This document shows positions 13,479 to 62,682 of a DNA stretch of 62,682 nt, in pieces. The position numbers and the translations under genes are program-made. Position 1 is the first letter of the stretch. Each line of letters starts with the position of its first letter. The notes beneath the pieces were generated by a model. It was given only the letters and a program-made list of their open reading frames with translations, ran no database searches and was not told the origin of the DNA. Source of the DNA: Planctomycetaceae bacterium (lineage in GTDB: Bacteria > Planctomycetota > Planctomycetia > Pirellulales > Pirellulaceae); assembly GCA_021298315.1 (NCBI GenBank), contig JAJTFC010000004.1, positions 1 to 62,682 on the forward strand. The letters are read 5' to 3'.

Positions 13479-13511
13479 CTGAAGGCACAATTCCTACCTC
13501 AAAGCACCTCG

Positions 13512-16403: not shown

Positions 16404-16434
16404 ACCCTAAACTCCAAGCAAAGCGAATATTCTT

Positions 16435-17868: not shown

Positions 17869-17894
17869 TGGTCATCGAATAAGAGGGATAAGCC

Positions 17895-19361: not shown

Positions 19362-19452
19362 AATATAACGACTGCACCTAGGGAAGCGATTAGCGAAAAC
19401 TTCGCACTTGCTTGCCGTCCCCTCCCAACCATATCCCCTCCGCAAACCGACC

Positions 19453-24192: not shown

Positions 24193-24200
24193 TGGCTAAC

Positions 24201-25535: not shown

Positions 25536-26565
25536 CAATCCACTCGGATGCCAAATGCCGAGGATGTTGCGATTCATCCAAGGCTCTTGCAGGCAGTGTC
25601 GTGAGCACCACGCAAATCCGAGATGAATCACGATCGACCCAAGCGAGCGTACCGGTCGACCCCGAATGCCCGAATGAATTCGGAGAGCAACTGACCTTGC
25701 TGCTTCGCATGTCGACATCAAATCCTAAGCCTCGCGATTCGATTTCCGGCGGGTTATGGTTCGTAAGCATCAAACGCTTGGTCGATGCTTTGAGGAAGTC
25801 ATCCTGATCGGTCATCATTGCACGAAGAAACTTGCCGATGTCGGTTGCTGAGGCATGTCCGCCACCCCACGGGGCACCTAGCTCCCTCCAATACTTGCTG
25901 TTCCAATTCCATCTTGCTGCATCTGCGGAACCACCACCGGCTTCGGGAGCCCCGAATTCGGTTTGAACGGGCATGCGGCTGACTTCCGATAGCTTACCGA
26001 TACCGAGTGCGGAATCCGACATTGCCAAGGGATCCAATACACGCTTCTGGACTAGTTCCAAGATCGTTGTCGATGCGATCCTTTCGGCCACAGCGCATGC
26101 GAGCAAGATCCCCATGCTCGAGTATTCGTAACCAGTGCCAGGTGCGAAGCGGAATTGTAGGCTTTTGCAAGATTCGACAAATGCGTTCAGTGGTGAAAGC
26201 CCCGAGCGCAGCTGATGATTGTCAGGAACTTGATCGGGGAGTCCCGATGTGTGGGTCAGCAGATGCTTGATCGTCACTCTCGGAAAATCCGCTTTGGTAA
26301 ACTCTGGCAGGTAGCAAGCTAGAGAATCGTCGAGCTTGAAGGCACCTTGATCGTAAAGACTCATCAAGGCGCAGACGGCGATCGGTTTAGTGATCGAACC
26401 TAGCAAATAGCTAGCGTGATCATCCGAGGCCAAACCGTAGTTGGCCGTAAAACGAGTACCAGCGTCCTGCGCGAATATCGAACCTGCAAGGATCTGTTTT
26501 TCTTGCGAGGAGTCCGAGAGAACTTGGCAAGCTTTTTCGCAGGCAGCAAGAAAATCAATCTCCAT
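25510..26565 (-). CDS. serine hydrolase, beta-lactamase/class C family
   Basis: A 351-residue serine hydrolase. The SxxK motif is GSITKP at about residue 56, the YxS-type motif is YEYSSMG at about 144, and a HxG-type motif, FGHSGSTG, lies near 298. Together these fit the penicillin-binding protein/class C beta-lactamase fold; the substrate may be a peptide or an ester. No signal peptide is apparent, so it may be cytoplasmic, unlike the homologue at 9172-10323. It lies 18 bases downstream of a DUF1501 gene on the same strand and is probably co-transcribed with it. Its 3' end overlaps the opposite-strand cytochrome-WD40 gene by 26 bases. Confidence 0.88.
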   Translation of the reverse strand: MEIDFLAACEKACQVLSDSSQEKQILAGSIFAQDAGTRFTANYGLASDDHASYLLGSITKPIAVCALMSLYDQGAFKLDDSLACYLPEFTKADFPRVTIKHLLTHTSGLPDQVPDNHQLRSGLSPLNAFVESCKSLQFRFAPGTGYEYSSMGILLACAVAERIASTTILELVQKRVLDPLAMSDSALGIGKLSEVSRMPVQTEFGAPEAGGGSADAARWNWNSKYWRELGAPWGGGHASATDIGKFLRAMMTDQDDFLKASTKRLMLTNHNPPEIESRGLGFDVDMRSSKVSCSPNSFGHSGSTGTLAWVDRDSSRICVVLTTLPARALDESQHPRHLASEWIAKASRPKP

Positions 26566-26583
26566 CGGTCGCTCGATTGGATC

Positions 26584-27963
26584 CTAGAGGATCGCCTCAA
26601 TGGGTGAGCCCTTGCTGATCGCAAGGGGTCGTCCGAGGCGGTCGTGAATTTCGGTACTAGGGGCAAAGCCCAAGCAGTGGTAGACGGTGGCCGTGATATC
26701 TTGAGGTTCGACACGACCATCGAGTGGAAAGGCACCTTGGCGATCGGAAGCCCCGTAGACCGTGCCACCTTGAACCCCTCCGCCTGCAAGTGCTCCGCTA
26801 AAGACATGTCCCCAATGATCTCGACCGCCACCTGGATTATGTTTCGGGGATCGACCGAACTCACCCATCCACACGACCAAGGTATCCTCGAGCATACCTC
26901 GCTGCATCAGGTCTTCGAGCAAGGCCGAGTAGGCTTGATCCATCGGTGGCATAAGAACGGTCTTTAGCCGTTCCGCATTTTTCGCGTGGGTATCCCAAGC
27001 TGGAGCGTTGTCTGGGTCGTCCTTCCAACGGGTCCAGTTGACTTGGACAAGCGATACGCCTGATTCGACAAGTCTTCGAGCAAGCAGGACGCTCTGTCCG
27101 AACCGATTTCGACCGTAGCGATCCCGCATCGAATCGGACTCTTGATCAAGCGAGAATGCGTTTTGAGTTTCTTTCGTCCGGATCAGATCGATTGCTTTGT
27201 TTTGCCAAGTCCCCCAGCGCTCGAGGGCTGGGTTTTGCTGTATCTTGTCAAGCGAACGATTCAATTGTGCAAGAAAGTTTTTGCGTTGTTCGAATCGCTC
27301 TGTGGTAAGTTCTGCGGGTAGAGCGATATCAGGGACACGAAAGTCAGGAGCATTCGGATCACAAGTCACTAGCCAAGGATCCGCATGGCTACCGAGCCAG
27401 CCGGCATCTTGGCCTGGCCAAAGCAACCGTCCGGTATTCCATATCTCCTCGGGGAGTCTTATAGAACCAGGCAACGGGCCTGAATCTCCTTTGAGGTGTC
27501 GCACGACGGCGGCCATAGAGGGCCAATCGTTGGGGGGGCCGGGAAGTGAGTTCTCCGCATTCTTGGGCGAATGAGGATACCCTGTAAGCATCCAATAGCC
27601 GCTGGCTGAATGAGCATTATCATCAGTAGCCATGGCGCGGAGCACGGCGATCTGTTTAGTAAGTTTCGCCGTCAGGGGCATCAGTTCCCCAACGTGCAGT
27701 CCGGGAGTTGCCGTTGGAATGGGCTTGAATTCTCCGCGAACTTCGGCGGGCGCATCGGGCTTGGGATCCCAAGTTTCGTGTTGAGGAGGACCGCCGAGCA
27801 TGAACAGGACGATGCATCTTTTGGCTTTGCCGAAAGAACCCGCGATACTGCGGGGCTGCATGGCAGAAGCCACTGCAGGGGAGCCGATCGACAAGCCGAA
27901 CGAGCTTAGCGAACCGATTTCCAGCAATTCGCGACGCGAGAACTTCCCTTGTATCTTGATCAT
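26584..27963 (-). CDS. Tat-exported DUF1501 protein, third copy
   Basis: A 459-residue DUF1501 protein with the Tat signal SRRELLEIGSLSSFG at about residues 9-23. Motifs: VLFMLGGPPQHETWDPKP near 52, MATDDNAHSASGYWMLTG near 110, WDTHAKNAERL, VVWMGEFGRSPK and GRDHWGHVFSGALAGGG. It resembles the copy at 17895-19361 more than the one at 16435-17868. It faces away from the main DUF1549 block, is upstream of a serine hydrolase gene and is divergent from the zinc-ribbon hydrolase gene at 28188. No DUF1549 partner adjoins it on this strand, so it may be recruited by another system or act alone. Confidence 0.92.
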   Translation of the reverse strand: MIKIQGKFSRRELLEIGSLSSFGLSIGSPAVASAMQPRSIAGSFGKAKRCIVLFMLGGPPQHETWDPKPDAPAEVRGEFKPIPTATPGLHVGELMPLTAKLTKQIAVLRAMATDDNAHSASGYWMLTGYPHSPKNAENSLPGPPNDWPSMAAVVRHLKGDSGPLPGSIRLPEEIWNTGRLLWPGQDAGWLGSHADPWLVTCDPNAPDFRVPDIALPAELTTERFEQRKNFLAQLNRSLDKIQQNPALERWGTWQNKAIDLIRTKETQNAFSLDQESDSMRDRYGRNRFGQSVLLARRLVESGVSLVQVNWTRWKDDPDNAPAWDTHAKNAERLKTVLMPPMDQAYSALLEDLMQRGMLEDTLVVWMGEFGRSPKHNPGGGRDHWGHVFSGALAGGGVQGGTVYGASDRQGAFPLDGRVEPQDITATVYHCLGFAPSTEIHDRLGRPLAISKGSPIEAIL

Positions 27964-28187
27964 CTTGGAAAGCTTCGAAACGGTGGAATTCAGAGAGGAT
28001 ACAAACCAGTTGGAATAGTATAGCTTACCCTAAACCTGGCAACAAACCCGCTCAGAGTGCGGTGCTTGGATGAGCAAAACCGCCGATAAACCAGTAAAAC
28101 CCCCCGTTGTTGCAACCAAGCACTCGCGCGGTATTCTAGGAAGCCTCTTTTTGAGAGTATCCCGGACAAGCTCACTAGGAATGATTT

Positions 28188-48540: not shown

Positions 48541-49182
48541 CTAAAAAAGACGGTTTCGGACCGCCCAAACCGCCGCTTGGGTTCGGTCCGTCACGCCAAC
48601 CTTGCGCAAGATATGTTGGACGTGCTCCTTGACCGTTTCATAGCTGATCCCAAGCTCTTCAGCAATTCGCCTGTTGGTTAGTCCGGTTGCAAGTTTGCTT
48701 AAGACATCCGATTCGCGTAACGTAAACGGTGTCTCGAGTCCCGGGATCGAAGGTCCAGTCGAAAAACAAGCTTGATACCGTCTAAGTTCTTCTTTGTTCC
48801 AGAGGTTCTGTTTTCTGACCGCAGCATCGAGTTTCCGCAAAATCTCTCCTGGACTATCCGTCTTTTGAACGACTCCAAGCACCCCGCACTGAAGGCCGCG
48901 AAGGAACAACTGGGGCGAATCCGAACGCGCTAGAAACAATAGCGGTATACCTGGACGAAACTCAGACAGCTCTGAGGCAACTGCGATGGGATCAGCATCA
49001 AATAGTTCAGCGTCGATCATCCCAACGAGACTCGAATTGGTTCCTTCAAACAAGCTTGAATTAATACGATTTGGACGAAGCGTATGAAGCTTGTATCGCA
49101 TCGATGTATCGAGGATCGACGCAAGTCCAGATCGATCGATGTCAAAGGATGTAATCAAAAACAAATCATGCGTTAGAGTCAT
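48541..49182 (-). CDS. LuxR-type regulator with degenerate receiver domain
   Basis: About 213 residues, NarL/FixJ layout: an N-terminal receiver-like domain (about 1-125) and a C-terminal LuxR helix-turn-helix (about 145-213, TLRESDVLSKLATGLTNRRIAEELGISYETVKEHVQHILRKVGV). The receiver part is odd: the acidic pair after the first strand is not evident (ITSFDIDRSG), the Thr/Ser position reads ARS, while the conserved Lys (VVQKTDS) and a possible acceptor Asp (GMIDAEL) remain. It could be a pseudo-receiver that does not need phosphorylation. It lies at the downstream end of the polysaccharide cluster on the same strand, 199 bases after its last gene, so it is a candidate regulator of it. The ATG at 49182 is preferred over the one at 49203. 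Confidence 0.85.
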   Translation of the reverse strand: MTLTHDLFLITSFDIDRSGLASILDTSMRYKLHTLRPNRINSSLFEGTNSSLVGMIDAELFDADPIAVASELSEFRPGIPLLFLARSDSPQLFLRGLQCGVLGVVQKTDSPGEILRKLDAAVRKQNLWNKEELRRYQACFSTGPSIPGLETPFTLRESDVLSKLATGLTNRRIAEELGISYETVKEHVQHILRKVGVTDRTQAAVWAVRNRLF

Positions 49183-49381
49183 CGAGAAAGACCCTGCCAG
49201 CAAAAGAAAAAGAAGAGATAAGGAAAAGGAGATTCGTATCGTAATTCAATCCGCGGCAGATGAAAAGGTTCCTCAGGTATTTTAGGGTTCTTCAGGAATG
49301 ATCGTGGCTGAGTCGATTTGTTTAGGGACAGGCTGCTGCGTGCTGGTGCTCAGTGATACGGTGCTCGTACTCAAAAGGAGT

Positions 49382-50794
49382 TTAGTTAGATTTTCGCCAA
49401 GCCAATAAACGCTCGTGGTATTGGGATTGCTCGGCCGACGCAGCTACCAAGTGATCCGCAAGTTGGCTAACAATTCCCCGAATCGAATCGTCGTATCGAT
49501 AAGCTTGTTCCAAATGCCAATCACCCGATTTTGCATCACCGGAAACAACTTTGCAAAGGGCTAAAAACAGATGCACCATGGGTAAATCCAAGCCTTCGAC
49601 GAGCCACTGGTTGAGCGCGTTTTGCAACTGTTCAAGTTCCTGTTTCGGTCTAAGCAACGATTCAGAAACGAAATTTCTAGTGGATTTTTCACCTCCTTGA
49701 GTTCTTGCGATTCGGACCAAACAGTAAGCGATTTCTCTTGGATTTCTAGGTTCGGCCAATGCGCTTTGGATACGGCGTTGTAAAAAGCCTTGATAAGCCA
49801 TCGCTGTTGGCCCGTCACGACTAATTTGTAAACCTTCGATGAACACCAACTCAGCCTTGCTCCACTCACCTAGGGACTCATAAACTCCTGCAAGCTGACT
49901 GCGCGCGCTTCGATTCCATGGATCGGAACGCAATAGATTGCCAAGCAACTGGGCACTGGTTTGTAAAACCTCGGTGCGTTCCTGCTCCTTACCCATCCTT
50001 TTGAGTAGCGAAGCATAGCCGAGACTCTCTGAAGGGTTCTGCTGCCATAAAGCACGATACGCCTCTAGTGCTTGGGATTCCTCTCCAGACCAATAGAATT
50101 CCAACGCTTTCAAAACCCCGATTTGGCTCGGATTCACACCTGAGGATCTCTCCAAATGCCAGCGGAATCGCTCGAGTTGCTCACCCCGATTTTCAGTATC
50201 CGACGCGTTTTTTTCCAGCTCCGCAGCATACTTGCTTGCTCGCCAAAAATGGGCCACTCCAAGTCCGGTCGAATCCTCCGGAGATAAATGCTCTAGCATG
50301 CTCTCGGCAGCTTTTTCTTCTCCGGCCTGCACCTGAACGAGCGAGATCAGAAATTTCCGATCGAGATTCGAAAAATCCTGGTCGTTGATCCATCGCATGG
50401 AGTATCGAACTCCCAAGGATCCTTTTTGCTTCGAATAAGCATTCTGAACTTTTGCAAGATACCGGTTGAAGATTCTCTCTTGATTAAAACCTACAACCAA
50501 CCAGACGGCGAATGTACCGATGGATAAAACAACGAATGGAAGGCTCCAAAAGTAAGATCTTTTTCGAGCACCGCGATAGAATAAACCAGCGATAGGATAA
50601 GTGATAACCTGCGCAGAATATTGCACCAATCGCAGCACAATAGTTTTTGCACGTTTTTTTGAATCCTGCGATTTAGAAATATCTTCGGTATCTAAAGGTC
50701 TAAAGATTCTCAGGCTGTTTCGCAGGCCCTTTTCGATCGCGTCGGACAACCAAGCGATCAATCTAACTGGAATCGTTGTCAAAAATCTGAGCAT
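49382..50794 (-). CDS. TPR-like membrane-anchored protein linked to exosortase
   Basis: A 470-residue protein. An N-terminal basic amphipathic stretch precedes two hydrophobic segments (about 50-75 and 82-103, SLPFVVLSIGTFAVWLVVGF). The remainder is helical, with TPR-like repeats, for example PSESLGYASLLKRMGK and WNRSARSQLAGVYESLGEWSKAELVFIEG near 260-310. It has no catalytic motifs. It comes 15 bases after the exosortase gene, on the same strand, and resembles in layout the 535-residue protein at 60312-61919, which follows the second exosortase fragment. A role in assembly or recognition of exported proteins is inference from context. Confidence 0.75.
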   Translation of the reverse strand: MLRFLTTIPVRLIAWLSDAIEKGLRNSLRIFRPLDTEDISKSQDSKKRAKTIVLRLVQYSAQVITYPIAGLFYRGARKRSYFWSLPFVVLSIGTFAVWLVVGFNQERIFNRYLAKVQNAYSKQKGSLGVRYSMRWINDQDFSNLDRKFLISLVQVQAGEEKAAESMLEHLSPEDSTGLGVAHFWRASKYAAELEKNASDTENRGEQLERFRWHLERSSGVNPSQIGVLKALEFYWSGEESQALEAYRALWQQNPSESLGYASLLKRMGKEQERTEVLQTSAQLLGNLLRSDPWNRSARSQLAGVYESLGEWSKAELVFIEGLQISRDGPTAMAYQGFLQRRIQSALAEPRNPREIAYCLVRIARTQGGEKSTRNFVSESLLRPKQELEQLQNALNQWLVEGLDLPMVHLFLALCKVVSGDAKSGDWHLEQAYRYDDSIRGIVSQLADHLVAASAEQSQYHERLLAWRKSN

Positions 50795-50809
50795 GGTTTG
50801 TGCGCCTAG

Positions 50810-52306
50810 CTATCTATCCAAACCATCTGAAACCTTCGCCCTAATTTGTTCCTCAATCGCCTTGCGAAATTTTCCGAAGAGCTCCTTCTGGGACTTTTGT
50901 TGCTTTTGAGAATAAGGCTGATAGCCTTGTTGAATCAAAGAAAGCTGCAGCACCGGCGAACCCGATGGGTCGGAACTAGCAATACCGAGGTTACTACTGA
51001 CCACAAAGGCTTCCTCGACGATCGATCGATTCATCGCCCAACTGAATTGCCCAAGTTCGTCGACGATCGGTGTGTTTAAATGCCATCCAAACCAGCGCCA
51101 ATGCCAATCGATTTGCGGGGGATACGACCAAGGCCCCTCTAATCGAAGTTGCATAGAAGACGAGTCATCGGATTGCTTCGCTAGGTGCCATTCACGTTGA
51201 AACCAAGTCTCCCCATGTTTAAAAACCGGCTTGATCGATTCCTTCGAGTTAGAGACTTCGGTTAACTTCCAACCCTCTATTTCCTCAGGTATCTTTATCC
51301 CCTCTAGGGCACTTGCCATCGCTCGACTTGATAGCCGGACATAGGGATGCGTCGAATCTCGATAGAGGATGGCCGATCCGATGAAAACAATCCCAATCAA
51401 GAACCCATAAACGAAATAGATCGCTTGGCTGAAATCCTTCGTCGCTGTACCTGATGAATTCGCTTGGTCGGGATCTGATTCTACTTCCTTGGTTCTCAGC
51501 GCCTCGAAGAACTGATTTGCACTCCAACTGAGAAACAAAATCCCCAACAGACACAGCGTATCGGCCAACGGAGCATTGAAGCTCAACGGCGAGGGCTGGT
51601 TATCTTGTCGCCAGGCAAAATAAGCAATTCTGACTCCATTGAGCACCAGGACCCAAAAAACACAAACCAACGCAAGATAGATCGTGCGCATCGAGCGGTA
51701 ACCGCAAAGAAATGAATACCCCAGAGTGACCAGCAAAGCCGGACCGAGCAATCGTAGCCCCGAACATTGACCGTTCTCCAAAAAATCTGTACTGACCAAG
51801 CCGATGACGTTTCCTCTGGCAAAGTAAAAGATCTTTGCAAGATCGAGCATCGCACCGGCAAAGCTCGTTGCAATCATCTGGCCGTAACTGTGAATCTCCG
51901 GTGCAAGCCTCCAGAGCGATAGCGGCAGAAAGAACGCCAAACAGGCTAGGTGAAAGAAGGTCAATGATGACAATCTCGCGGAAAGACAAATCAAGCCGCT
52001 CAGACACACAGCCCAACCTCGGAAAACCCAAACGGGGTCGGACGCATACCAACCCCAAACGACCCCCAAGAACGCCAACAAGAGGCCCATTGCCAATGCA
52101 TTTGGAGTTACAGCGGATGTTGAACTCGTAGCGCCGGAACGTCTGCTTGCAATTGCTGCAAGCAGGATCGATGCAAAACCGAGTATCAATAATCCAAATT
52201 CAAACCAGAAACCACCTAAGACGATCTCCGAGAGCACTCGCCAAACGGATGGGGACAGAACGGCAACCGAAATTGCCAGTAAGCCAAGGGTTAAAGTCTT
52301 TACCAT
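50810..52306 (-). CDS. exosortase (planctomycete XrtU-like) with EpsI-like C-terminal domain
   Basis: A 498-residue polytopic membrane protein. About eight to nine helices span residues 1-330; the catalytic Cys is in NGQCSGLR (Cys about 181) and the catalytic Arg in NGVRIAYFAW (Arg about 226). Exosortases cut and transfer proteins with PEP-CTERM-like tails, usually in connection with polysaccharide export. The usual third residue, a His about 25 residues after the Arg, is absent: the segment reads FNAPLADTLCLLG. After a last membrane helix the C-terminal 165 residues form an extracytoplasmic EpsI-like domain (IPEEIEGWKLTE, WFGWHLN). The family is clear, the XrtU subtype is from memory. The downstream neighbour is the TPR-like protein and the upstream one is the tyrosine kinase. 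Confidence 0.85.
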   Translation of the reverse strand: MVKTLTLGLLAISVAVLSPSVWRVLSEIVLGGFWFEFGLLILGFASILLAAIASRRSGATSSTSAVTPNALAMGLLLAFLGVVWGWYASDPVWVFRGWAVCLSGLICLSARLSSLTFFHLACLAFFLPLSLWRLAPEIHSYGQMIATSFAGAMLDLAKIFYFARGNVIGLVSTDFLENGQCSGLRLLGPALLVTLGYSFLCGYRSMRTIYLALVCVFWVLVLNGVRIAYFAWRQDNQPSPLSFNAPLADTLCLLGILFLSWSANQFFEALRTKEVESDPDQANSSGTATKDFSQAIYFVYGFLIGIVFIGSAILYRDSTHPYVRLSSRAMASALEGIKIPEEIEGWKLTEVSNSKESIKPVFKHGETWFQREWHLAKQSDDSSSMQLRLEGPWSYPPQIDWHWRWFGWHLNTPIVDELGQFSWAMNRSIVEEAFVVSSNLGIASSDPSGSPVLQLSLIQQGYQPYSQKQQKSQKELFGKFRKAIEEQIRAKVSDGLDR

Positions 52307-52401
52307 GACTCGGTTGTTCGTTCGATCAGAAGCATAAGACGGGCCGTTTGCTTGCTGCCAATTGAAATTTTCGCTATCGAATACTTTCGCCGGGACTGCC
52401 T

Positions 52402-54879
52402 TTAGCTCTCTCGGCCAACACGGTCGTCAGACCGCACCCTATCAGAATAATCTGAATATTTCTTGTCGTAGTAATTTTTGTAGGAATATCCGTGGTAATA
52501 AGCCCCCCGATAGTAGGTTCCATACTCATTGTAGTAGAGATTCTCGTCCATTCCATTGACGATCACTCCAATGAGATTCCCATTGACCATCGTCAAACGA
52601 CTCTTGGCTTTGTGCGCCGAAAGCACCACACCCCTGCGAATCCGTAGTACCATAATGATACCGTCGACCAAACTGCAAATCGAAGTTGCATCGGCAACGG
52701 GAATCACTGGGGGAGAATCGATCAATACGAAATCAAATCGATTGCGTAATTCAGAGATAAAATCGACGAATGATGAAGATGCGACCAATTCTCCTGGATT
52801 TTTAGGACGGCCACCGGTCGTAAGGAGATAAAGATTCTTTTGAAAATCACAAGGCCTAATTGCATCATCGAGGCTACAGGTACCTTCCAAGTACTGCATC
52901 CCCCCGGGTTCGAATTGAACACCAAAATTCTGCTGAACTCTTGGACGTCGATAGTCTGCATCCAGTAAACAAACTCGCTTGTTGGTTTGCGCAAGCGATA
53001 TCGCAAGATTGGCGATCGTGGTGGATTTGCCATCGCCCGGCGAAGGGCTTGTAAACATAAAGACTTTGCCGCCAGACTGTGCTGCTGTAAAGAGCAATGA
53101 GGTTCTGGCTGCCCGGAACGACTCGGATACCGATGAGTTCGGTTGATGCGTCGCGACAAGCATCGGAGACCCAACAAACCCTTCAGGCGTCTTGGATTTC
53201 CTGATTCTTGGGATCTTGCATATGACCGGTGTGTTGAGGTTCTCTTGGATATCGATCGGGGTTCGATAGGCTAGATCAGAATGATCGATCAAAACAGCTA
53301 GTCCACAACCAAGCAGACCGCCCAGGGTTAAACCGGCGAGTAGAAACTTCCAGAGTTTTGGGAATACCTGTAGTGGAAATGAAGCCTCATCGATGATTTT
53401 AACCCGAGTCGAGGAGTAAGAGTTGGACATGGCTCGCATCGCCGATAGCTTTTCAAGGATTTGCCCGACAGTATTCCTACGATCCTCGATCTGATCGCGA
53501 AGCATATTTAGCTCAGTGATATCTCCCGCGATGACAGTCGACTTGCTGGTTAGCTCCGTGATGTCTTCTGCGATACGATCCAGATTGTATTTGGCGCGAT
53601 CTCGCTTGTTGGACATCGCTGCTGCATAGAGTTGAAGAATATCGGTGTCTCGGGTGCGAGACTGCTTGGATAGTGTTTCAGCATACTGCTCGACGGCCTC
53701 ACTGCCTGACTTACGGGCAACGCCGCCTAAGCTATCGCTTTTTGCCTCGATCTCTTGTTCTTTTCTGAGGAAACCTCTTAACGTTTCGAGTTCTTGGCTG
53801 AGCCGGTTCCTGGTCGCGACGGCCGCTTGAAATTTCGCTTCGACGAACTCGACTTGCGGATGCTTAGCCCCATAGCGGGCCTGAGCCTCGGCTCGTTCCG
53901 AATCCATCGTCACAACATCGGCGTTGGCCGCCTCCATACGCTGCTCGTATCGCATTAACCGCAGACGGTCTTCTTCGGACATACCGTTGAGAAAATCCAA
54001 TCCACGATCCTGCTTATCGAGACTAAAGTACTTTCGCCCTTCGATCACTGCTAAGCGTAAAAGATCATCCCTGGGATTATCTGGATCGGTTGCTACGCGA
54101 ATCTGCTCGAGCTGTTGATCTGCATCGCGAAAATCCTCGAGGATTTCATCCCTCTCCAATCGAAGCTTTTCAATCTCAGAGACATAGGGATTGACCCACC
54201 GCCCTTTGTCATTCTCAGCCGTAAGATTCAACTCCTTGAGCAACTGATAATATCGCTCTTGGTCTGTTTTTTGATCATCGACCAATGACCTTTGTAGTCG
54301 TTCGATAAGTTCAACGGACTCTTTGCCAGAGATTTCAGAATCCTTTTCAATCGCCGAGATGTACGATGCAACAACTTGATTTAGAATCCCGGGCAAATCC
54401 TCTTTGACGGTCCCTTCCAAGACGATCTCCAGAGCGTCTGATGTCAAATCTTTGCCAACTGGAGATATCGTAAGCATTTTCCGCAGATCACTGATCGGTG
54501 AGTCTACGGACTTGAACGTTTCGAGCTTATCGAGCTGGCCATTGCGGATCGCTTCGGTTAGCACCGTTTGTCCTGAGAGCAAGACGCGATGTTTCTCCAG
54601 CGAAACAGCCTGCGGGAGAACCTCTCCATTGACAACGCTCGGAGGCGCCTGAACAAAGAGCATGAGCTTCATCACCGAGGCATATGCCGGTGTAACCTGG
54701 GTGTAGAGGATACTGGCGATTGCAGCACCCAGTACCGAGAGCAGAATGATGACCGATTTACGCCGCCAAAGAGCGCCGTAAAAATCGATCGATGGCATCG
54801 ATGGCTCATCCTGAAGCCCACCGCCCCGTCCGATGTTGCTAGACTCATCGAATCCATACTGCAAATTTGGCTTATCCAT
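52402..54879 (-). CDS. Wzc-like polysaccharide co-polymerase/tyrosine autokinase
   Basis: An 825-residue protein. Wzz-type N-terminus with membrane helix at about 40-60 (SVIILLSVLGAAIASILY), a long coiled-coil periplasmic region (about 100-490), a second helix at about 513-537, and a BY-kinase domain: Walker A in SPSPGDGKSTT (about 630), Walker A' CLLDADYRRP, Walker B FVLIDSPPVIP. The C-terminal tail has 13 tyrosines in about 34 residues, the autophosphorylation cluster. It would regulate polymer length and export of a polysaccharide. It lies between the glycosyltransferase and the exosortase genes; no Wzx, Wzy or Wza is seen in the window. Confidence 0.93.
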   Translation of the reverse strand: MDKPNLQYGFDESSNIGRGGGLQDEPSMPSIDFYGALWRRKSVIILLSVLGAAIASILYTQVTPAYASVMKLMLFVQAPPSVVNGEVLPQAVSLEKHRVLLSGQTVLTEAIRNGQLDKLETFKSVDSPISDLRKMLTISPVGKDLTSDALEIVLEGTVKEDLPGILNQVVASYISAIEKDSEISGKESVELIERLQRSLVDDQKTDQERYYQLLKELNLTAENDKGRWVNPYVSEIEKLRLERDEILEDFRDADQQLEQIRVATDPDNPRDDLLRLAVIEGRKYFSLDKQDRGLDFLNGMSEEDRLRLMRYEQRMEAANADVVTMDSERAEAQARYGAKHPQVEFVEAKFQAAVATRNRLSQELETLRGFLRKEQEIEAKSDSLGGVARKSGSEAVEQYAETLSKQSRTRDTDILQLYAAAMSNKRDRAKYNLDRIAEDITELTSKSTVIAGDITELNMLRDQIEDRRNTVGQILEKLSAMRAMSNSYSSTRVKIIDEASFPLQVFPKLWKFLLAGLTLGGLLGCGLAVLIDHSDLAYRTPIDIQENLNTPVICKIPRIRKSKTPEGFVGSPMLVATHQPNSSVSESFRAARTSLLFTAAQSGGKVFMFTSPSPGDGKSTTIANLAISLAQTNKRVCLLDADYRRPRVQQNFGVQFEPGGMQYLEGTCSLDDAIRPCDFQKNLYLLTTGGRPKNPGELVASSSFVDFISELRNRFDFVLIDSPPVIPVADATSICSLVDGIIMVLRIRRGVVLSAHKAKSRLTMVNGNLIGVIVNGMDENLYYNEYGTYYRGAYYHGYSYKNYYDKKYSDYSDRVRSDDRVGRES

Positions 54880-55078
54880 CGATTCGACTATCCTCGCGAT
54901 CCAGCAGTTTCACGGTACCGATTCTTTGCATCGAGTATTTTCACGTAGCGCAACGGCTATCTACTGATTTCCCTCTTCATCTTAGGAAAGCCCCTATTGC
55001 ATGTCTACTCGTTTCGACCAATCCAGCCTTCGACCTACACTGCTTCCCCAGAGAGATGTCCACAAATTCTTCCATTTT

Positions 55079-55837
55079 TCAGCCGGTCGAGCGAAAAAAC
55101 TGGGACAATTTGCGAAGTGGTTTCAAGACCCTCAATGCCCATGGCGGTCGTGTCCCGTTGACGGTCCAGGCTCTGGCGTCCTGTCTGTTGGCCTTGATTC
55201 GGTTAAGAATCGATGCGTTGCTCGCTCCTCCGGTTCGCATGCACACGAGAATTTCTGGAATATAGGCTATCGGTATCCTCCCAAAATACATCATGCGAAG
55301 CATGATTTCGTAGTCTGCTGCTGACCCGAAATCTTCCCGGAAAAAGCCATAACCCTCATAGCACGCCCGACGAAGGTACACTGTCGGATGAGGAGGCATC
55401 CATCCATAGCGAAAGTTCTTTAAATCGTAATTGCCCGAAATCCACCGACGGACCAATCTGGAGGGATCTTTGGAATCCACATAATTAAGGTCTCCATAAG
55501 TACCCATGAGCTGCCGGTCGCTTTGGAATTCCTCGGCAATTCGAGCCACCACCTGCGAGCCGGAGAAAAAGTCGTCGGCGTGCAAGAAACCGACAACTTC
55601 GCCAGTCGCTAGCCTGAGCCCCTTGTTGAGCGCATCGTAGATCCCAGAGTCTTTTTCTCTAACATAAGTGGAAATCCGATCCGAGTACCTCCCAACAACA
55701 CGATGCGTACCGTCGTCGGACATTCCATCGATCACGATATACTCGATATCGGGATAGGATTGACTCAATACAGATCCAATTGCGTTGGAGATCGTATCGC
55801 AACGATTGTAAACTGCGGTGATAATCGAAACTTTCAT
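55079..55837 (-). CDS. family 2 glycosyltransferase
   Basis: About 252 residues. A GT-A fold: KVSIITAVYNRCDTISNAIGSV at the start, the UDP-binding IDGMSDDGT, DSGIYDALNKGLRLATGE and the metal-binding LHADDFF (about 93), then FGSAADYEIMLRM near 185. It resembles WcaA/WbbD-type transferases that add a sugar to a lipid-linked oligosaccharide. The ATG at 55837 overlaps the previous stop codon (ATGA, 4 bases), so translation is coupled to the epimerase. A longer frame to 55900 lies within the epimerase gene. The acceptor and sugar are unknown; the nearby pathway suggests a dideoxyhexose, but family 2 enzymes use many donors. Confidence 0.92.
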   Translation of the reverse strand: MKVSIITAVYNRCDTISNAIGSVLSQSYPDIEYIVIDGMSDDGTHRVVGRYSDRISTYVREKDSGIYDALNKGLRLATGEVVGFLHADDFFSGSQVVARIAEEFQSDRQLMGTYGDLNYVDSKDPSRLVRRWISGNYDLKNFRYGWMPPHPTVYLRRACYEGYGFFREDFGSAADYEIMLRMMYFGRIPIAYIPEILVCMRTGGASNASILNRIKANRQDARAWTVNGTRPPWALRVLKPLRKLSQFFRSTG

Positions 55838-56886
55838 ATCCCTTGCACCCATTGAATCATCTGCGTCAACCCCTCCAAAACCCCGATCGATGGCGACCAA
55901 CCAAGCACCCGTTCCGCTTTATCGATATCGGCAACAAAAAAATCCTGGTCGCTTTGACGCCTCGGTAGCTTATCGAAAACCAATCCTTGGTTCATCCCTA
56001 AGAGATCTTCGAGCATCTGAAAAAGCTCCAACATACTCACGCTGTTTCGGATCCCACCACCGATGTTAAAAACCTCGCCTGCACACTGTTGGCGGTGCTG
56101 AAATGCTTGCCGATAAAGTGCAACAAGATCTCGGCTGTCGAGCAAATCTCGAACCTGCTTTCCGGATCCGGAAATCGCAAATGGTTTTACGCTCGAACCT
56201 TCCAAGCGACATCGTTGCTGCTGGATCGCTTGGGTCGTTGACCAACCTACCCAGCCTTGGTCTTCCGTAGCGTATTGCCTCTGGCCATAGATCGATGAAT
56301 GCCTAAAAACGACCGTCTCCAATCCGAAATTTCGATACCAGTCCTTCACATACTGATCTGCACAACCTTTTGAACATCCATAGGGTGATGCAAAATCAAC
56401 CGACATCGATTCATCGATACCCTTTGGGTAGTCGAGCAAACAATATCTAGTTTCAGTTTCTCCGTACCTAAGGTGTTTTAAATCTCCATAGACTTTATTG
56501 GTCGAACTAAAGGCAAAAAAACAATCCGGAGACTTCCTGCGCGAAACCTCCAGTAAGTTCATCGTTCCCAGAGCATTGGTTCGAAAATCCGCAATCGGGT
56601 CTTTCATCGAAAACGTCATCGCCACTTGGCCCGCAAAGTGACATACGTAATCAAAGGGTCCACGTCTAGAGAAGACATCTTCGAGCGAGCCGATTTCTGC
56701 GATGTCCGTTTGAACCAATTCCAGACATCCTGGCCGGCAACGCATACCCTCAAGCCAATGAAAATTTTCCCAGCAACCTCGCTTGAGCATCCTATCAATG
56801 ATCGTTACTCTCGAACCTTCTTGCAAATAGCTCGCCGCAATGTTCGATCCTAAAAAACCACACCCACCAGTTATCAAAATGTTCAT
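55834..56886 (-). CDS. rfbE: CDP-paratose 2-epimerase (tyvelose epimerase)-like
   Basis: A 350-residue SDR extended enzyme. The NAD motif GGCGFLGSN is at about 7-15, and the family-specific segments HFAGQVAMTFSMKDPI, SSTNKVYGDLKHLRYGETETRY, SPYGCSKGCADQYV (Tyr-x3-Lys) and FRHSSIYGQRQYATEDQGWVGW match the Salmonella/Yersinia RfbE tyvelose epimerase closely. It interconverts CDP-paratose and CDP-tyvelose. The expected upstream enzyme, RfbS (CDP-paratose synthase), was not found in the window. It follows rfbH by 47 bases and overlaps the glycosyltransferase by 4 bases. Confidence 0.87.
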   Translation of the reverse strand: MNILITGGCGFLGSNIAASYLQEGSRVTIIDRMLKRGCWENFHWLEGMRCRPGCLELVQTDIAEIGSLEDVFSRRGPFDYVCHFAGQVAMTFSMKDPIADFRTNALGTMNLLEVSRRKSPDCFFAFSSTNKVYGDLKHLRYGETETRYCLLDYPKGIDESMSVDFASPYGCSKGCADQYVKDWYRNFGLETVVFRHSSIYGQRQYATEDQGWVGWSTTQAIQQQRCRLEGSSVKPFAISGSGKQVRDLLDSRDLVALYRQAFQHRQQCAGEVFNIGGGIRNSVSMLELFQMLEDLLGMNQGLVFDKLPRRQSDQDFFVADIDKAERVLGWSPSIGVLEGLTQMIQWVQGI

Positions 56887-56933
56887 ACCAAGGCTCGTGG
56901 ATACTTAGAACTCGTCAGTTTTTGTCAAATCCA

Positions 56934-58385
56934 TCAACGCTTGCAAAAGGCTCGGATCGTAGCGATGATGTGACCAATCATGTCATCGCTAAGCCCAGGA
57001 TAAGTTCCAACAAAGAACGCATGCTTCATGATTTGATCTGCACCTGACAAGTCGCCAATGATTCGAATCGATGCAGGAGACTCTTTGAGAACCTGGGTAA
57101 AGACTGGCTGCCTGAGGAGATTCCCTCCGAAAAACATTCGATTGCCAATCTTGTTTTGATCGAGGAATTGAACGAGCTCCGTTCGGGAAAAACCAGCTTG
57201 AGGTCTAACGCTCATCTTGAAACCAAACCAAGAACAATCGGACCTGCAGCCGCTTGAATCCCATGAAAAATCACCCGAGGGATTCCAACTCGTCGCGTGG
57301 GTGGGTAGGGAGAAATCAAGCACATCCTCTAGATCAGCCAATCCCTTCCGCAACTTCTGCCAGTTTCGCTTCCTTGCTTGAATAAAACTTGGCAGCTTAT
57401 CGAGCTGCCGGAGTCCGATCGCAGCTTGCAAGTCTAAAGGTTTTAAGTTGTAACCCAGATGGGTGTAGATGTACTTGTGATCGTATCCACTCGGAAGATC
57501 TCCGAGTTGCCATTGATACCTTTTGTTGCAGGTGTTGTCTTTACCTGAAGCGCACCAGCAATCTCGCCCCCAGTCGCGATAGCTCTCAACGATCGGCCTT
57601 AGCGCCGCCTGACTGACGACATTGACAAGCCCCCCCTCTCCCATGGTCAGATGGTGCGGTGGGTAAAAACTCTGCGTTGAGAGATCGCCCCAACTTCCGG
57701 TGTATTTGCTCGTCGGTTCCGATGCACTGCCGACCGAAGCGCAATAGATCGATCCCAGGGCATCACAATTGTCCTCGATCAACCACAGATCGTTTTCCCG
57801 GCAGAATTCCAAAGTCGTTTTAAGATCGAAAGGATTTCCCATCGCGTGGGCCATCATCACCGCTTTGGTCTTTCCTGGGCAATATGCGTCTTGAAGCCTT
57901 TCGCACTTGGCATTTCCTGTGATAGGGTCTGCATCGATGAAGACTGCCGTTGCGCCGCACTGGAGGATGGGCGCTACAGTCGTTGGAAATCCCGCAGCGA
58001 CCGTAATAACCTCGTCACCAGGTAACAACCGCCGATCCCTAGGCAACTTGGGACTTGTAAGGGCTGAAAGGGCAAGCAGATTAGCGCTCGAACCTGAATT
58101 GACCAAGAGCGAATGGCGAACACCCAGAAACTCGGAAAACCTTCGTTCGAATCGTTCACCATTTGGACCTAGAGTCAGCCAAAAATCCAGTGCGCTGAGC
58201 ACCGCCGCTTCAACCTCCTCCTCGTCAAAAACACGACCCGCGTAGGGGACTGGAGTTTCACCAGGTTCAAAGAACTCATGGTTCGATGGATCCTCGCCCG
58301 GTCGATTCGAACCGTGTTCTAACCGAGAATACTCTCGCACCAAGCGAGATATCTCTTGGCGGATTCTTTCCGAATTCGAGTCCAT
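56934..58385 (-). CDS. rfbH: CDP-6-deoxy-4-keto-glucose 3-dehydrase (E1), RfbH-type
   Basis: A 483-residue PLP and iron-sulfur enzyme of the DegT/DnrJ family. It removes the 3-hydroxyl of CDP-4-keto-6-deoxyglucose with a partner reductase. The distinguishing mark is His in the place of the PLP lysine: FYPPHHLTMGEGGLV at about 240-254. Three cysteines close together, in DCWCASGKDNTCNK, fit the [2Fe-2S] cluster of the family. The N-terminus holds LGPNGERFERRFSEFLG and the glycine-rich VNSGSSANLLAL. The E3 reductase (RfbI/AscD) it needs is not in the window. It is 30 bases from rfbG upstream. Confidence 0.94.
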   Translation of the reverse strand: MDSNSERIRQEISRLVREYSRLEHGSNRPGEDPSNHEFFEPGETPVPYAGRVFDEEEVEAAVLSALDFWLTLGPNGERFERRFSEFLGVRHSLLVNSGSSANLLALSALTSPKLPRDRRLLPGDEVITVAAGFPTTVAPILQCGATAVFIDADPITGNAKCERLQDAYCPGKTKAVMMAHAMGNPFDLKTTLEFCRENDLWLIEDNCDALGSIYCASVGSASEPTSKYTGSWGDLSTQSFYPPHHLTMGEGGLVNVVSQAALRPIVESYRDWGRDCWCASGKDNTCNKRYQWQLGDLPSGYDHKYIYTHLGYNLKPLDLQAAIGLRQLDKLPSFIQARKRNWQKLRKGLADLEDVLDFSLPTHATSWNPSGDFSWDSSGCRSDCSWFGFKMSVRPQAGFSRTELVQFLDQNKIGNRMFFGGNLLRQPVFTQVLKESPASIRIIGDLSGADQIMKHAFFVGTYPGLSDDMIGHIIATIRAFCKR

Positions 58386-58415
58386 CGGTTTTCTGCTTGT
58401 TTACCCCAAAGAATT

Positions 58416-59522
58416 TTAGATTGCCCAAGCTTGTTCAGCTCGGATTGCATCATCCACGTAGGATCTTATCGACCGATCCGTAGCAATCACAGGATCTATC
58501 CCTGAATGAACGGATTGATACCAAGCCGCCGTTTGGGAAATACAGGTCTCGAACGACCAAGTCGGCTTCCAACGTAGCAACCGGATCGCCTTGTCGATCG
58601 CAAGCCTCAAATTGGCTGACTCATGCGGCTGACTTAGGATTGACGATTCGATCCAATCTCCTCCTGTATGTCGGATCATCGTCTCGACCAATTCCAAAAC
58701 AGTGCGTTCGTGATCTCTTTGCGGTCCAAAATTGAAGGCTGAACACAAGGATTCGCGGGAACTTGAACTCTCTTCTTCGCGACTCATTTGTGCTGCCAAC
58801 CAAAGATAACCTGATAGAGGTTCCAAGACATGTTGCCATGGCCGAGTCGATTTTCCGTTACGAACCACAATCGGATCTCCGGCCAAGACGGCTCGCATGA
58901 TATCAGGCACAATTCGATCCCTAGCCCAATCTCCACCTCCAAGTACATTTCCGGACCGACCGCTAGCCAAACGCACAAGATGTCCGTGACCAGAGAAGAA
59001 TGAAGAACGATACGCTGAGACTACCAGCTCAGCACAAGCCTTTGAGGCGCTATAAGGGTCATGTCCTCCGAGTGGATCTTCTTCGCGATAGAAATCTATT
59101 GTTTCTTGGTCGCGATAGCATTTATCGGAAGTAACGACAACAACCGCACAGGGTTTTTTGTAGCCGACTAACGCCTGCAAGAGATTCACCGTTCCAACGA
59201 CGTTAATCTCAAATGTCTCGTCAGGTATTTCGTAAGAACGCCTTACTAAAGGCTGTGCTGCAAGATGAAAAACAAAATCGGGTTCGAACTTGTGAATGTG
59301 TTTGGACAACAAAACCCCATCCCTGATATCGCCTTGCACCTGGTAGGGGATCCTGTTGTTCAAACCCAATTGCCCGTAGAGCAAATCCTGTGATTGAGGC
59401 TCAAGAGAAAATCCACAAACCTCGGCACCCAAGCTCAATAGCCAATGAGAAAGCCACCCGCCTTTGAAACCTGTGTGACCAGTGACCAAAACACGTTTAG
59501 AAAAGTAGGCGTCCTCAAACAC
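58416..59522 (-). CDS. rfbG: CDP-glucose 4,6-dehydratase
   Basis: A 368-residue SDR enzyme that converts CDP-glucose to CDP-4-keto-6-deoxyglucose. Motifs: VTGHTGFKGGWLSHWL at about 12-27 (NAD binding), HLAAQPLVRRSYE near 88, TSDKCYRD, the active-site region DPYSASKACAELV (Tyr-x3-Lys) near 155 and RSGNVLGGGDWARDRIVPD. The start is GTG at 59522. It lies 7 bases after rfbF and 30 before rfbH, in one operon. Confidence 0.94.
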   Translation of the reverse strand: MFEDAYFSKRVLVTGHTGFKGGWLSHWLLSLGAEVCGFSLEPQSQDLLYGQLGLNNRIPYQVQGDIRDGVLLSKHIHKFEPDFVFHLAAQPLVRRSYEIPDETFEINVVGTVNLLQALVGYKKPCAVVVVTSDKCYRDQETIDFYREEDPLGGHDPYSASKACAELVVSAYRSSFFSGHGHLVRLASGRSGNVLGGGDWARDRIVPDIMRAVLAGDPIVVRNGKSTRPWQHVLEPLSGYLWLAAQMSREEESSSSRESLCSAFNFGPQRDHERTVLELVETMIRHTGGDWIESSILSQPHESANLRLAIDKAIRLLRWKPTWSFETCISQTAAWYQSVHSGIDPVIATDRSIRSYVDDAIRAEQAWAI

Positions 59523-59529
59523 GACCGAA

Positions 59530-60315
59530 TCAATCCTTCCAAATTTTCCAAGGTGCTTTGCCGGAATCCCAGAGATTTTGCAATTCGTTGCGATCGCGTA
59601 GGGTGTCCATGGCTAACCAGAAACCTCGATGTCGATATGCAGCCAACGCACCTGTTTCTGACAGTTTCTTCAGCGGTTTACGTTCCCAGATCGTCTCGTC
59701 TCCTTCCTCGATGAAATCAATCGCCCCAGGTTCCATGACGAAAAAACCTCCGTTAACCCAAGCATCGTTCACCTCGGACTTCTCCTGAAAATCAGAGATC
59801 CGGGAAGGGTCTTTTTTGCTAAACGATAAAGCACCATAACGTCCTGGGGGTTCAACGGCAGTCAAAGTGACCATCGCCCCGCTGGAACGATGAAACTCGA
59901 TAAGCTTCGTTAAATCAACATCTGCGACTCCATCGCCGTATGTTAAACAGAAAGTTTCGCCTCCCAAAAAACGCTCGATTCTCTTGATGCGTCCACCCGT
60001 CATCGTGGCTTCACCGGTATCAACAACAGTAACTCGCCAAGGCTCTGCATGCCTTTGGTGAACCTCGATGGAATTGCTCGCCATATCGAAGGTTACATCG
60101 GACATATGCAAGAAGTAATTCGAGAAGTACTCTTTGATCATGTATCCTTTGTATCCTGCACAAATGATGAAATCATGGATTCCAAATGCAGAATAGATCT
60201 TCATGATATGCCATAGGATTGGCTTTCCTCCGACCTCGATCATCGGCTTAGGTCTCAGATGCGTCTCCTCAGATATCCTCGTCCCCATCCCACCTGCTAG
60301 GATCACAGCTCTCAT
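59530..60315 (-). CDS. rfbF: glucose-1-phosphate cytidylyltransferase
   Basis: A 261-residue nucleotidyltransferase that makes CDP-glucose from CTP and glucose 1-phosphate, opening the CDP-dideoxyhexose pathway. The N-terminal pyrophosphorylase motif is [16 protein letters not shown] at about 3-18, with the conserved [19 protein letters not shown] at about 23-41; [14 protein letters not shown] near 127 holds the metal-binding Asp, and NGGFFVMEP near 191 contacts the sugar. The length equals family members. The ATG overlaps the stop codon of the preceding TPR-like gene by 4 bases (ATGA), tying both to one transcript. Confidence 0.95.
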
Positions 60316-61919
60316 CTTTGGACGTGCTCCGTTTTGGGATCGCCTTCCTGATCGGTCAAAGATTGCTCTTGAGCCTTTCTCAAGAGCTGATCGATAAGCT
60401 TATTCGCAGGATCGATCTTGGCAAGCATTTCCAAATCCGCGATGGCTTGCCCCCACCTGCGGTTCTCGCACAGAAGAATCGCCCGCCCTAGCTTAAACTC
60501 CGCACGGCTTGGATAAGCCTGAATCATCGATTCGACCACAGGTTCTAACTGCGTCCATTCCAGATGACGTTTTCGTGAAATCTGAATCAACAGTGACATC
60601 ATGGACAACGCGACATCCATATCCTTTTCCGACCACTCTGGAGATCGATCCATCCCACGGATTGCCTCGACTGTTTTTCTTTCAATGACGCGTCTAATCC
60701 AATCCAATTGGTCCATGAATGGATCTTCAGAGCTTTTCAACGAGCGATCCGATCCTTCAGCCAGTTGCGTTTCTATTTGTTCTTGATCCAACAGCAAGCT
60801 TTCCAGAAGCCAACTCAAATCGGGATGATCAGAACCAAGCCGCACGGCAGATTTTAATATGGCACCTGGGGGCATCGAAGCGTAAGCACCCTTGGGATAG
60901 GATTTCGCTGACGCCCATGCCCTTAGCTGACTTGCTACCGCAAGATGCCTTAGCAGCATCTGATCGGAGCTGGGAATTTGTTCCAGGCGACTTAAGACCG
61001 AACTTGTGGCCTCCTCTGGCCCGGAAAGAATCATCAAACAACGAAAAAAACCCTCGAATTCATCGATGCGCTGAGCAACGCTCAGATTCGATACGTTTTG
61101 CAATCGCGATGAATGTTTCAGAATCACATCTCGAGCGATCTGAATCGCTTTCTCCGGTACGATGCTCGCCAAGCCTTCGGCCAACCAAGCTTCCGCAGAC
61201 AATAATCCGCCGGGTTCTTCTTGCGAGGCACCGGACCGTTCGAGATTCATGGCGATCCTTTGAACTCCTGAACCTAGCAACTGGTCCTTGATATCGTGGC
61301 TCAAAGGCGGACTTAGGCGGTTTGCCAATTGAATCTCAAGTGAGCCAATCGCAATAGCTGATTCCGCAGTTTCCGACTGATTGCTATTTTGGAGATATCG
61401 CTCCAGGAGCCCCTGAATCTGACCGGAATCGTCTCGACAAGACTGCCGTATCCATCGGATTTCCTCCCCAAGAAGCCATCGCTTGGCCCATTGCCCATCC
61501 GTCCCCTTCAATCTGGACGCTGAGCGTATCGATTCTCTCGCGCGGCTTCGAGTTGCATTCATCAAATGACTCCACTGCTCGTATTCCGAGGAATCCTTTC
61601 CGATTTCCTCGGACAGGAGCCGACTAGTTATCGATGAAATCTTCAGATTGACCTCCGCATGCATACGCCGGTACTTCGGTTCATCTGGATACCGAACCAT
61701 CAACCTTTGCGAGGCCAACTCGGCTGTTTTGAGATCCTCAAGTCGCCCCCCGCCTAGGGCCCTTTGGACCACCGAGTCGTATCGACTGTCTATGGACGGT
61801 TCAATGACCCATTGACTTGTGGCGACCAGCACAACGGTAGTGATTGCCAAAATCAGCGAAGGCAAACCCCATCTCCAATAGGTTTGGGGGGTCTCCGGAA
61901 GGTTTACGATCTGCGACAT
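60312..61919 (-). CDS. TPR-like membrane-anchored protein, second copy
   Basis: A 535-residue protein with one N-terminal membrane helix (about 18-40, [20 protein letters not shown]) and a long helical remainder. TPR-like helices occur along it, clearest near the end ([39 protein letters not shown], about 470-510). No catalytic motifs. Its layout matches the 470-residue protein at 49382-50794, but similarity is low. It lies 4 bases after the exosortase-related fragment and overlaps rfbF by 4 bases, so it joins the second exosortase copy to the sugar operon. Confidence 0.75.
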
Positions 61920-61923
61920 AGGC

Positions 61924-62682
61924 TCAATCGCTTCGAAGGTTTCGTAGCGCGTCGGAGGATTTGCCTTGAACCTGCCGCCTATTGGATATAAATATTTTGC
62001 GAAGTTTCGCTAGTTGCTCTTGATGGGGTTCAGAGCTGGTATAGGCAATCTGCTGAAACTGAAAAGTGATCGGCTCTAGGATAGGGTCTGAAGGACGCTT
62101 TCTATTGAACAAAGTCGTCGTCCATCGATTCGCTTTCGATCGATACTCAAAGGATCCTTCGTAAGTGTACGGTTGGCCGTTTTGGTCAAAAAGTGAAAAA
62201 TGCAAAATAGCAATATCCCCAAGATCATTTCTCAGTTTCGTTTCATAGAATGATTCGCCTTGGTCATCGGTAACAAGCTGGCTATTTTCTCTTTGCCAAC
62301 CAGAGTTGATATAGCACTCCCATAAGGGATGCCATCCTCGAAACGGAAAATCCAGACAGACCGTCATGTTACCGAGTTCCCATTGCAGATCCCAGATCCG
62401 AGAATGCTGACCGAGCATGTCATTGCGATCTCGCGACTCGGTATGGAACCCTACCAATCGAGCACCGCCACCGGGAAGCAAATCCTTCATGCCGGGGAAT
62501 CTTTCGGAATCCTCTGCCCTTATGCTCGGCAGATCTGGCTTGGAATGGAACTCAGAGACCGCTCGAATGCTTTCCGGAAAAAACAAAAAAAGAACCAAGG
62601 GTATTGCCGCCCACGGGTAACCGAGGCGTAGAAATCCAGGTGACTTCAGGGCAGGGGGGGCATCAGCAGTCACTGCTTCGGA
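61924..62682 (-). CDS. partial exosortase-associated protein, cut by the window edge
   Basis: About 250 residues are visible; the frame is open to the last base of the window (a GTG at 62673 is only a possible start). A hydrophobic helix lies at about residues 19-38 (LGYPWAAIPLVLFLFFPESI), followed by an extracytoplasmic domain of about 200 residues with GWHPLWECYINSGWQ, which parallels the EpsI-like tail of the exosortase at 50810-52306 (both have Trp-rich, GWH-type segments). I infer that it is the C-terminal part of a second exosortase whose membrane part lies to the right. It could instead be a separate EpsI-like protein. The TPR-like gene follows after 4 bases. Confidence 0.65.
   Translation of the reverse strand, partial: SEAVTADAPPALKSPGFLRLGYPWAAIPLVLFLFFPESIRAVSEFHSKPDLPSIRAEDSERFPGMKDLLPGGGARLVGFHTESRDRNDMLGQHSRIWDLQWELGNMTVCLDFPFRGWHPLWECYINSGWQRENSQLVTDDQGESFYETKLRNDLGDIAILHFSLFDQNGQPYTYEGSFEYRSKANRWTTTLFNRKRPSDPILEPITFQFQQIAYTSSEPHQEQLAKLRKIFISNRRQVQGKSSDALRNLRSD

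Follow-up and report, generated by a model that had tools for sequence, protein, structure and literature searches.

The 62,682-nucleotide window analyzed here is an entire contig (JAJTFC010000004.1, C83 below) of a metagenome-assembled genome (MAG) of a Planctomycetaceae bacterium, which comprises 205 contigs with 89.55% completeness and 4.43% contamination. Its right end carries a cassette of ten genes, all on the minus strand, reading from 62682 to 49382 as the C-terminal part of exosortase U (XrtU), TPR2, RfbF, RfbG, RfbH, an epimerase/dehydratase (SDR), a glycosyltransferase, Wzc, a left exosortase and TPR1, where TPR1 and TPR2 are tetratricopeptide repeat (TPR) proteins. Two related exosortases bracket one surface-polysaccharide locus, and the left one, which has lost the HxxxG motif, is a protein that we lean towards reading as a non-catalytic partner of XrtU. 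The features, all on the minus strand, are as follows.

49382..50794 (-): TPR1, single-pass membrane TPR protein of 470 aa, putative partner of the left exosortase (Pfam TPR_19, 29.7 bits, cut-off 25)
50810..52306 (-): left exosortase with EpsI-like tail, 498 aa, without HxxxG, named here pseudo-exosortase (pXrt) (PF09721, XrtU profile alignment, motifs)
51551..51601 (-): His-free stretch of the left exosortase at the expected HxxxG, residues 236-252 (alignment columns 277-300)
51629..51631 (-): Arg226 of the kept NxxR motif (NGVR) of the left exosortase (alignment A3, motif table)
51764..51766 (-): Cys181 of the kept CxG motif of the left exosortase (C181 and G183 invariant in alignment A3)
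52402..54879 (-): Wzc-like chain-length determinant and tyrosine autokinase, 825 aa (TIGR01007, eps_fam, 143.8 bits, cut-off 108)
55079..55900 (-): family 2 glycosyltransferase (PF00535, Glycos_transf_2, 83 bits)
55834..56886 (-): NAD-dependent sugar epimerase/dehydratase, SDR (PF16363, 148.6 bits)
56934..58385 (-): RfbH (NF011936, 625.5 bits, cut-off 423)
58416..59522 (-): RfbG, CDP-glucose 4,6-dehydratase (TIGR02622, 438.3 bits, cut-off 278)
59530..60315 (-): RfbF, glucose-1-phosphate cytidylyltransferase (TIGR02623, 434 bits, cut-off 300)
60312..61919 (-): TPR2, single-pass membrane TPR-like protein of 535 aa, putative partner of XrtU (Pfam TPR_9, 20.6 bits, under the cut-off of 35)
61924..62682 (-): EpsI-like C-terminal portion of XrtU, truncated where the contig stops (NF033780)

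The open reading frames listed in a preliminary description of this DNA were all confirmed in position and on the minus strand. The Wzc-like kinase, glycosyltransferase and cytidine diphosphate (CDP)-dideoxyhexose genes that it had named were recovered by above-cut-off matches to the eps_fam, Glycos_transf_2 and RfbF/RfbG/RfbH profiles, the last three being the equivalogs of the CDP-dideoxyhexose pathway. The SDR gene (55834..56886) possibly encodes a late step of this pathway.

The stretch 61924-62673 matched the NCBIfam model exosort_XrtU_C (NF033780) at 111.3 bits, against a cut-off of 40, and is therefore the end of an exosortase, as had been suspected; this score of 111 bits rules out an unrelated protein. 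The suggested check of sequence to the right of the window led to the start of contig C123 (2-874, minus strand), which holds an exosortase catalytic half that is open at the contig end, scores 82.2 bits with PF09721 and is 66% identical to the XrtU of contig C161 (see below). A glycosyltransferase lies directly upstream of this half, with its C161 counterpart in the same order, and the final four bases of C83 are the initial four of C123. The C123 frame is most likely the catalytic half of the window's XrtU, with the adjacency of C83 and C123 unproved. The motifs CxG, NxxR and HxxxG are all kept in the C123 half and in the C161 paralogue, and for the window copy this depends on that adjacency. 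The XrtU on C161 (L018) is complete, with 541 aa, an exosortase domain and an XrtU_C domain. Scores with TIGR04178 (exo_archaeo, cut-off 23) were 43.5 bits for the C161 protein and 40.0 for the C123 half. Contig C123 also carries about 11 copies of a 45-base unit (L016:18450-18947; 91% match), in an array that reaches its far end.

The motifs defining exosortases are CxG, NxxR and HxxxG, and the paper describing them (Haft et al. 2006, PMC1569441) reports Cys, Arg and His as absolutely conserved and proposes that the enzymes act via this invariant set. The left protein (50810-52306) matched Pfam Exosortase_EpsH (PF09721) at 52.8 bits (cut-off 25.7), with a match that stops at position 214 of the 254 of the profile. 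It keeps CSG and NGVR and has no His at the expected HxxxG, so that an ordinary second exosortase was rejected. Left-type proteins were compared across seven loci, namely C83, C161, G123, G010 and three further MAGs from a scan of named genomes (L208, L209 and L210; two other loci, L207 and L211, apparently correspond to G123 and G010). His is gone in all seven, Arg in four (C161, L208, L209 and L210) and Cys in one (L210), while the window, G123 and G010 keep both Cys and Arg. All seven left-type genes are of full length. The protein of L210, a relative from Lake Erken, has lost all three residues and gives no Pfam match, yet its frame of 533 codons remains open in the same place. With TIGR04178, the left type reached 21.4 bits in the window and 22.1 in G123, and gave no match in C161 and L210. 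With XrtU_C, it reached 13 bits in the window and 20.6 in G010, and none in C161, G123 and L210; degenerate proteins of other clades exceed this cut-off (L083, 40.9 bits; L084, 83.8 bits). Because part or all of the catalytic set has been lost, pXrt is most likely non-catalytic.

Despite these losses, pXrt is under constraint. The ratio of nonsynonymous to synonymous substitution rates (dN/dS), computed by the method of Nei and Gojobori (NG86) with Jukes-Cantor (JC) correction, was 0.18-0.25 in the three close pairs among C161, L208 and L209, whose copies are already without Arg and His. In the pair C161-G123 it was about 0.19 for pXrt against 0.12 for XrtU. Thus, pXrt evolves faster than XrtU but remains constrained, and no premature stop was found in the copies of the window, C161 or G123. 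Searches of Protein Data Bank (PDB) sequences with the left-type profile and with the exosortase of contig C110 gave no match. A single-sequence fold of the left protein had a predicted local distance difference test (pLDDT) score of 42, and a six-sequence model a pLDDT of 68.6 and a predicted template modeling (pTM) score of 0.64. In this model, the tail resembled helix-grip (Bet v 1/PYR-like) ligand-binding folds with a best E of 0.028, none being at 0.001 or below, which may offer a weak lead towards an acceptor- or lipid-binding role of the EpsI-like tail.

The preliminary description had seen two copies of the same exosortase and TPR pair. Profiles of the left-type and XrtU-type proteins can be aligned along 358 columns that take in the tails (hhalign 95%, E 1.9e-8), and related pairs do bracket a single polysaccharide locus, but they are not two copies of one working module, with HxxxG missing from the left protein in seven loci. 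TPR1 and TPR2 each have one hydrophobic segment over the threshold, and their direct profile comparison was weak (46 columns, probability 9.9). A profile built from 62 exosortase-adjacent TPR proteins of other genera matched TPR1 (E 1.2e-45), the window TPR2 in two segments (E 3.3e-10) and the TPR2 of G010 (E 3.1e-5), and gave no match at E up to 10 to the TPR2-type proteins of C161, G123 and G074, missing three of five. The likeness of the two TPR proteins is thus weaker than that of the exosortases. The two pairs are probably related by their sequences, less surely so in the case of TPR2.

Contig C161 of the same MAG carries a complete second cassette, with all ten genes in the same order. 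Identities between C83/C123 and C161 are 35% for the left exosortase, 39% for TPR2, 62-66% for XrtU, 77% for RfbF and 85% for Wzc, making pXrt the fastest-changing gene of the cassette. The C161 cassette is syntenic with that of G123, which belongs to the same genus. Of the proteins flanking the C83 cassette, two have counterparts in unchanged order on a single G123 contig (C35), matching at 87% and 85%; the C161 flanks match at 76-97%. No exosortase was found on C35, so the C83 cassette appears to be an additional copy at a different site. The assignment of C83 and C161 to one organism comes from binning and from their similar distances to G123, and is unproved. A LuxR-family regulator (48541-49203, minus strand; GerE, 64.6 bits) lies between the core flank and the C83 cassette and could be its controller. 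Farther into the window (13458-28029, compared with L019:6575-11503), the protein at 16411-17865 and its neighbors are 27-40% identical to a DUF1501-type pair beside the C161 cassette; a DUF1501 protein of C123 (458 bits) is 84% identical to the C161 one.

The order TPR2, glycosyltransferase, Wzc, left exosortase and TPR1 is kept in seven loci, with pXrt adjoining Wzc in each. In six of these, XrtU is encoded on the pXrt strand at a distance of about 8-11 kb; in the seventh, the window, the contig ends within the XrtU gene. The sugar genes are less constant: rfbF/G/H are found in five of the seven loci (C83, C161, G123, L208 and L209) and are absent from L210 and L211, which keep the twin frame. 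In the family stretches holding an exosortase (at most 20 kb each), RfbF, RfbG and RfbH occur in 3 of 123 (window, C161 and G123). The rfbFGH genes are a swappable insert in the twin frame, and the link of the twin to a dideoxyhexose polymer, proposed in the preliminary description, is not general; a fixed link was rejected as a rule. In G010 (L073:10792-15471), the left-type exosortase is followed by two TPR proteins and then by a PEP-CTERM-tailed protein (23.6 bits), which, by its place beside the twin, is a possible candidate substrate. The MAG of the window gave 30 PEP-CTERM matches at E up to 1 (21 over the cut-off), and none of the matches listed is on C83 or C123.

We then considered the family as a whole. 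XrtU_C matches over the cut-off were found in 79 of the 149 sampled genomes of the window's family, and in 5 of the 294 genomes of a draw across the phylum, two of which are from the same family. The stretches fetched around the family matches contained 139 exosortase-like frames. Leaving out a classical exosortase on C110, a G010 fragment (L074) and the right fragment of the window (counted via its C123 half) gave 136, of which 5 were unreadable, their triad column being missing at a contig edge or masked. Among the 131 readable proteins of XrtU type, Cys, Arg and His are all present in 103; the other 28, from 22 of 78 genomes, are degenerate, with all three residues missing in 13 and only one missing in 10. 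Other motif residues did not define these classes, yet they track them: Asn of NxxR is present in 103/103 intact and 12/28 degenerate proteins, Gly of CxG in 103/103 and 18/28, and Gly of HxxxG in 99/103 and 4/28. Sequence errors could account for some of the single-residue cases, such as R to C in L089 or H to Q in L088. Two sister XrtU-type proteins of the window's genus (100% support in the Shimodaira-Hasegawa-like approximate likelihood ratio test, SH-aLRT) have Tyr at the His site in G136 (L080:9854-11746) and His in G146 (L081:9784-11538), and G136 also carries another intact XrtU (L079).

The degenerate proteins do not form one clade. Their distribution takes 11 parsimony changes on a tree of 132 rows, and an approximately unbiased (AU) test of a single clade, run on 26 degenerate rows and 41 intact ones of our choice with two long-branch degenerates left out, gave p 7.9e-8. 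Degenerate exosortases arose by several separate losses, and several are long branches. TPR genes are frequent neighbors: in 73 of the 92 cases where an exosortase frame has a sizeable frame directly downstream, the next protein matches TPR1- or TPR2-seeded profiles.

Counting as a twin locus any two exosortases within 15 kb (the window pair being counted across the contig break), we found 17, of which 12 were intact+degenerate, 2 intact+intact, 2 degenerate+unreadable, 1 intact+unreadable and none degenerate+degenerate. Hence 12 of the 14 twin loci with both members readable combine an intact and a degenerate exosortase (11 of 13 excluding the window). In L083, L084, L085 and L086 (genomes G049, G067, G118 and G095), head-to-tail exosortase pairs lie about 0-0.1 kb apart, and the second member is without all three catalytic residues.

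The homology of the twin, the colinear frame XrtU-TPR2-(sugar genes)-glycosyltransferase-Wzc-pXrt-TPR1, the residue losses, the purifying selection in three close pairs and the recurrence in the family are established. The recurrence of intact and degenerate pairing in relatives suggests that the second copy is probably a helper and not an enzyme. On balance, we favor a partnership in which the left protein assists XrtU without catalysis of its own. The locus would be a surface-polysaccharide cluster of the Wzc type that includes an exosortase pair of enzyme and pseudoenzyme, in which XrtU, served by TPR2 and retaining Cys, Arg and His, would be the working enzyme that cleaves the C-terminal sorting tails of exported proteins and passes them to an acceptor. 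The pXrt protein, whose membrane part and EpsI-like tail are retained, would act without catalysis as a membrane partner next to Wzc with TPR1 as its own adaptor, binding substrate tails or polymer machinery and positioning them for XrtU. Its loss of activity, the physical partnership, the substrate and the acceptor are inferred. More tentatively, and with less than even confidence, XrtU systems of the family may commonly be such pairs: dead exosortases would have arisen repeatedly and been kept by selection beside a working one, in many cases together with a TPR adaptor of their own, and would serve as membrane cofactors steering substrates or the growing polymer to the active enzyme.

Several observations weigh against a partner role. 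The presence of pXrt in 7/7 loci follows by construction, pXrt being the query, and no match to the left protein came from G074, G105, G136 and G146, four of the six further genomes sampled in the genus, all of which do have an XrtU. As the window protein retains Cys and Arg, its loss of activity comes down to one motif, HxxxG, and the left protein of G010 passes the exosortase signature TIGR04178 (24.8 bits, cut-off 23). Degenerates make up 14 of the 31 exosortases in twins against 14 of the 100 alone, a difference (Fisher p 7e-4) that ignores relatedness, and half of them (14/28) have no second exosortase within 15 kb. Of the 22 genomes that carry a degenerate copy, six have no intact XrtU that could be read; in G118 and G095 a contig end truncates the partner, and there is no such explanation for G073, G098, G122 and G143, of which three are less than 90% complete. 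Finally, no TPR gene adjoins 11/28 degenerate and 41/104 intact exosortases, by an adjacency rule that also missed a real TPR gene at C161.

The two residues kept in the window, G123 and G010 would also fit a pXrt that is still an enzyme, with a different residue or water taking over from His and the specificity perhaps altered. The signature match of G010 and the 10 of the 28 family degenerates lacking a single residue point the same way. Nevertheless, Arg is also gone in C161, L208 and L209, all three residues are gone in 13 of the 28 degenerates, and the L210 protein persists at full length in the same place without any of them, so that retained catalysis appears unlikely. Alternatively, pXrt could be a decaying, functionless duplicate on its way to loss, consistent with its divergence between C83 and C161 (35% identity, against 39% for TPR2, 62-66% for XrtU and 85% for Wzc), with residues that go one after another and with the absence of a match in four of the six other genomes of the genus. 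However, a dN/dS of about 0.2 in three close pairs, the uninterrupted frames in the window, C161 and G123, and the order with its TPR gene kept in seven loci make such decay improbable.

We give a similarly low probability to a pXrt that is no partner of XrtU but a repurposed exosortase fold, anchoring the EpsI-like domain in the membrane and serving polysaccharide assembly alone. Its position next to Wzc in seven loci, the 14 degenerates without a nearby second exosortase and the weak resemblance of the modeled tail to helix-grip folds agree with this idea, but not the 12 of 14 readable twin loci that join an intact and a degenerate member. An artefact of MAG assembly or bin contamination is scarcely credible: the MAG is incomplete and slightly contaminated (89.55% and 4.43%), XrtU is split over two contigs and C83 and C161 are unproved as one organism, but the twin is present in both cassettes and, with its order intact, in five other genomes, and the C83 flanks (85 and 87% to G123) fall within the C161 flank range (76-97%).

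About one-fifth (28/131) of the readable XrtU-type proteins of the family lack at least one residue of the Cys-Arg-His set, and most twins are intact+degenerate. Homology-based annotation would mislabel such proteins "exosortase", as the left protein of the window passes PF09721. If the degenerates are cofactors, the tie of a multi-pass sorting enzyme to polysaccharide export and the role of the EpsI-like domain become testable, partner by partner. Our literature searches retrieved no paper on exosortase U and none joining an exosortase with a pseudoenzyme, and "not described" here means not found by these searches.

Among known systems, exosortase U (NF033780) is the one to which the right-hand protein is closest, by its C-terminal domain over the cut-off and by the three motifs of the C123 half and the C161 paralogue. 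This model describes one protein only, and the left-type proteins of the window's clade are below its cut-off. PrsT (TIGR02917) is likewise a TPR protein tied to an exosortase system, but TPR1 scores 18 bits against the TIGR02917 cut-off of 312, and PrsT is described with a lipoprotein signal in PMC1569441, whereas TPR1 has one internal hydrophobic segment. The rhomboid pseudoproteases iRhom1/2, presented as ADAM17 cofactors in PMC13142363, are dead relatives of an intramembrane protease that act as cofactors; the analogy is one of logic only, since proteins and organisms are unrelated and the pXrt-XrtU interaction is a proposed one. A classical arrangement is found in the same MAG on C110 (L017:9475-18413), where an exosortase (TIGR02602, 137.7 bits), a Wzc-like protein, a 1529-aa TPR protein and a separate EpsI/DUF3485 protein share one locus. 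The EpsH/EpsI/PEP-CTERM system, as described in PMC1569441, resembles the window in having an exosortase and an EpsI-like domain amid exopolysaccharide genes, with a TPR protein in the wider system, and differs in that the triad is reported to be invariant there, whereas here the second exosortase of the locus has lost it partly or wholly.

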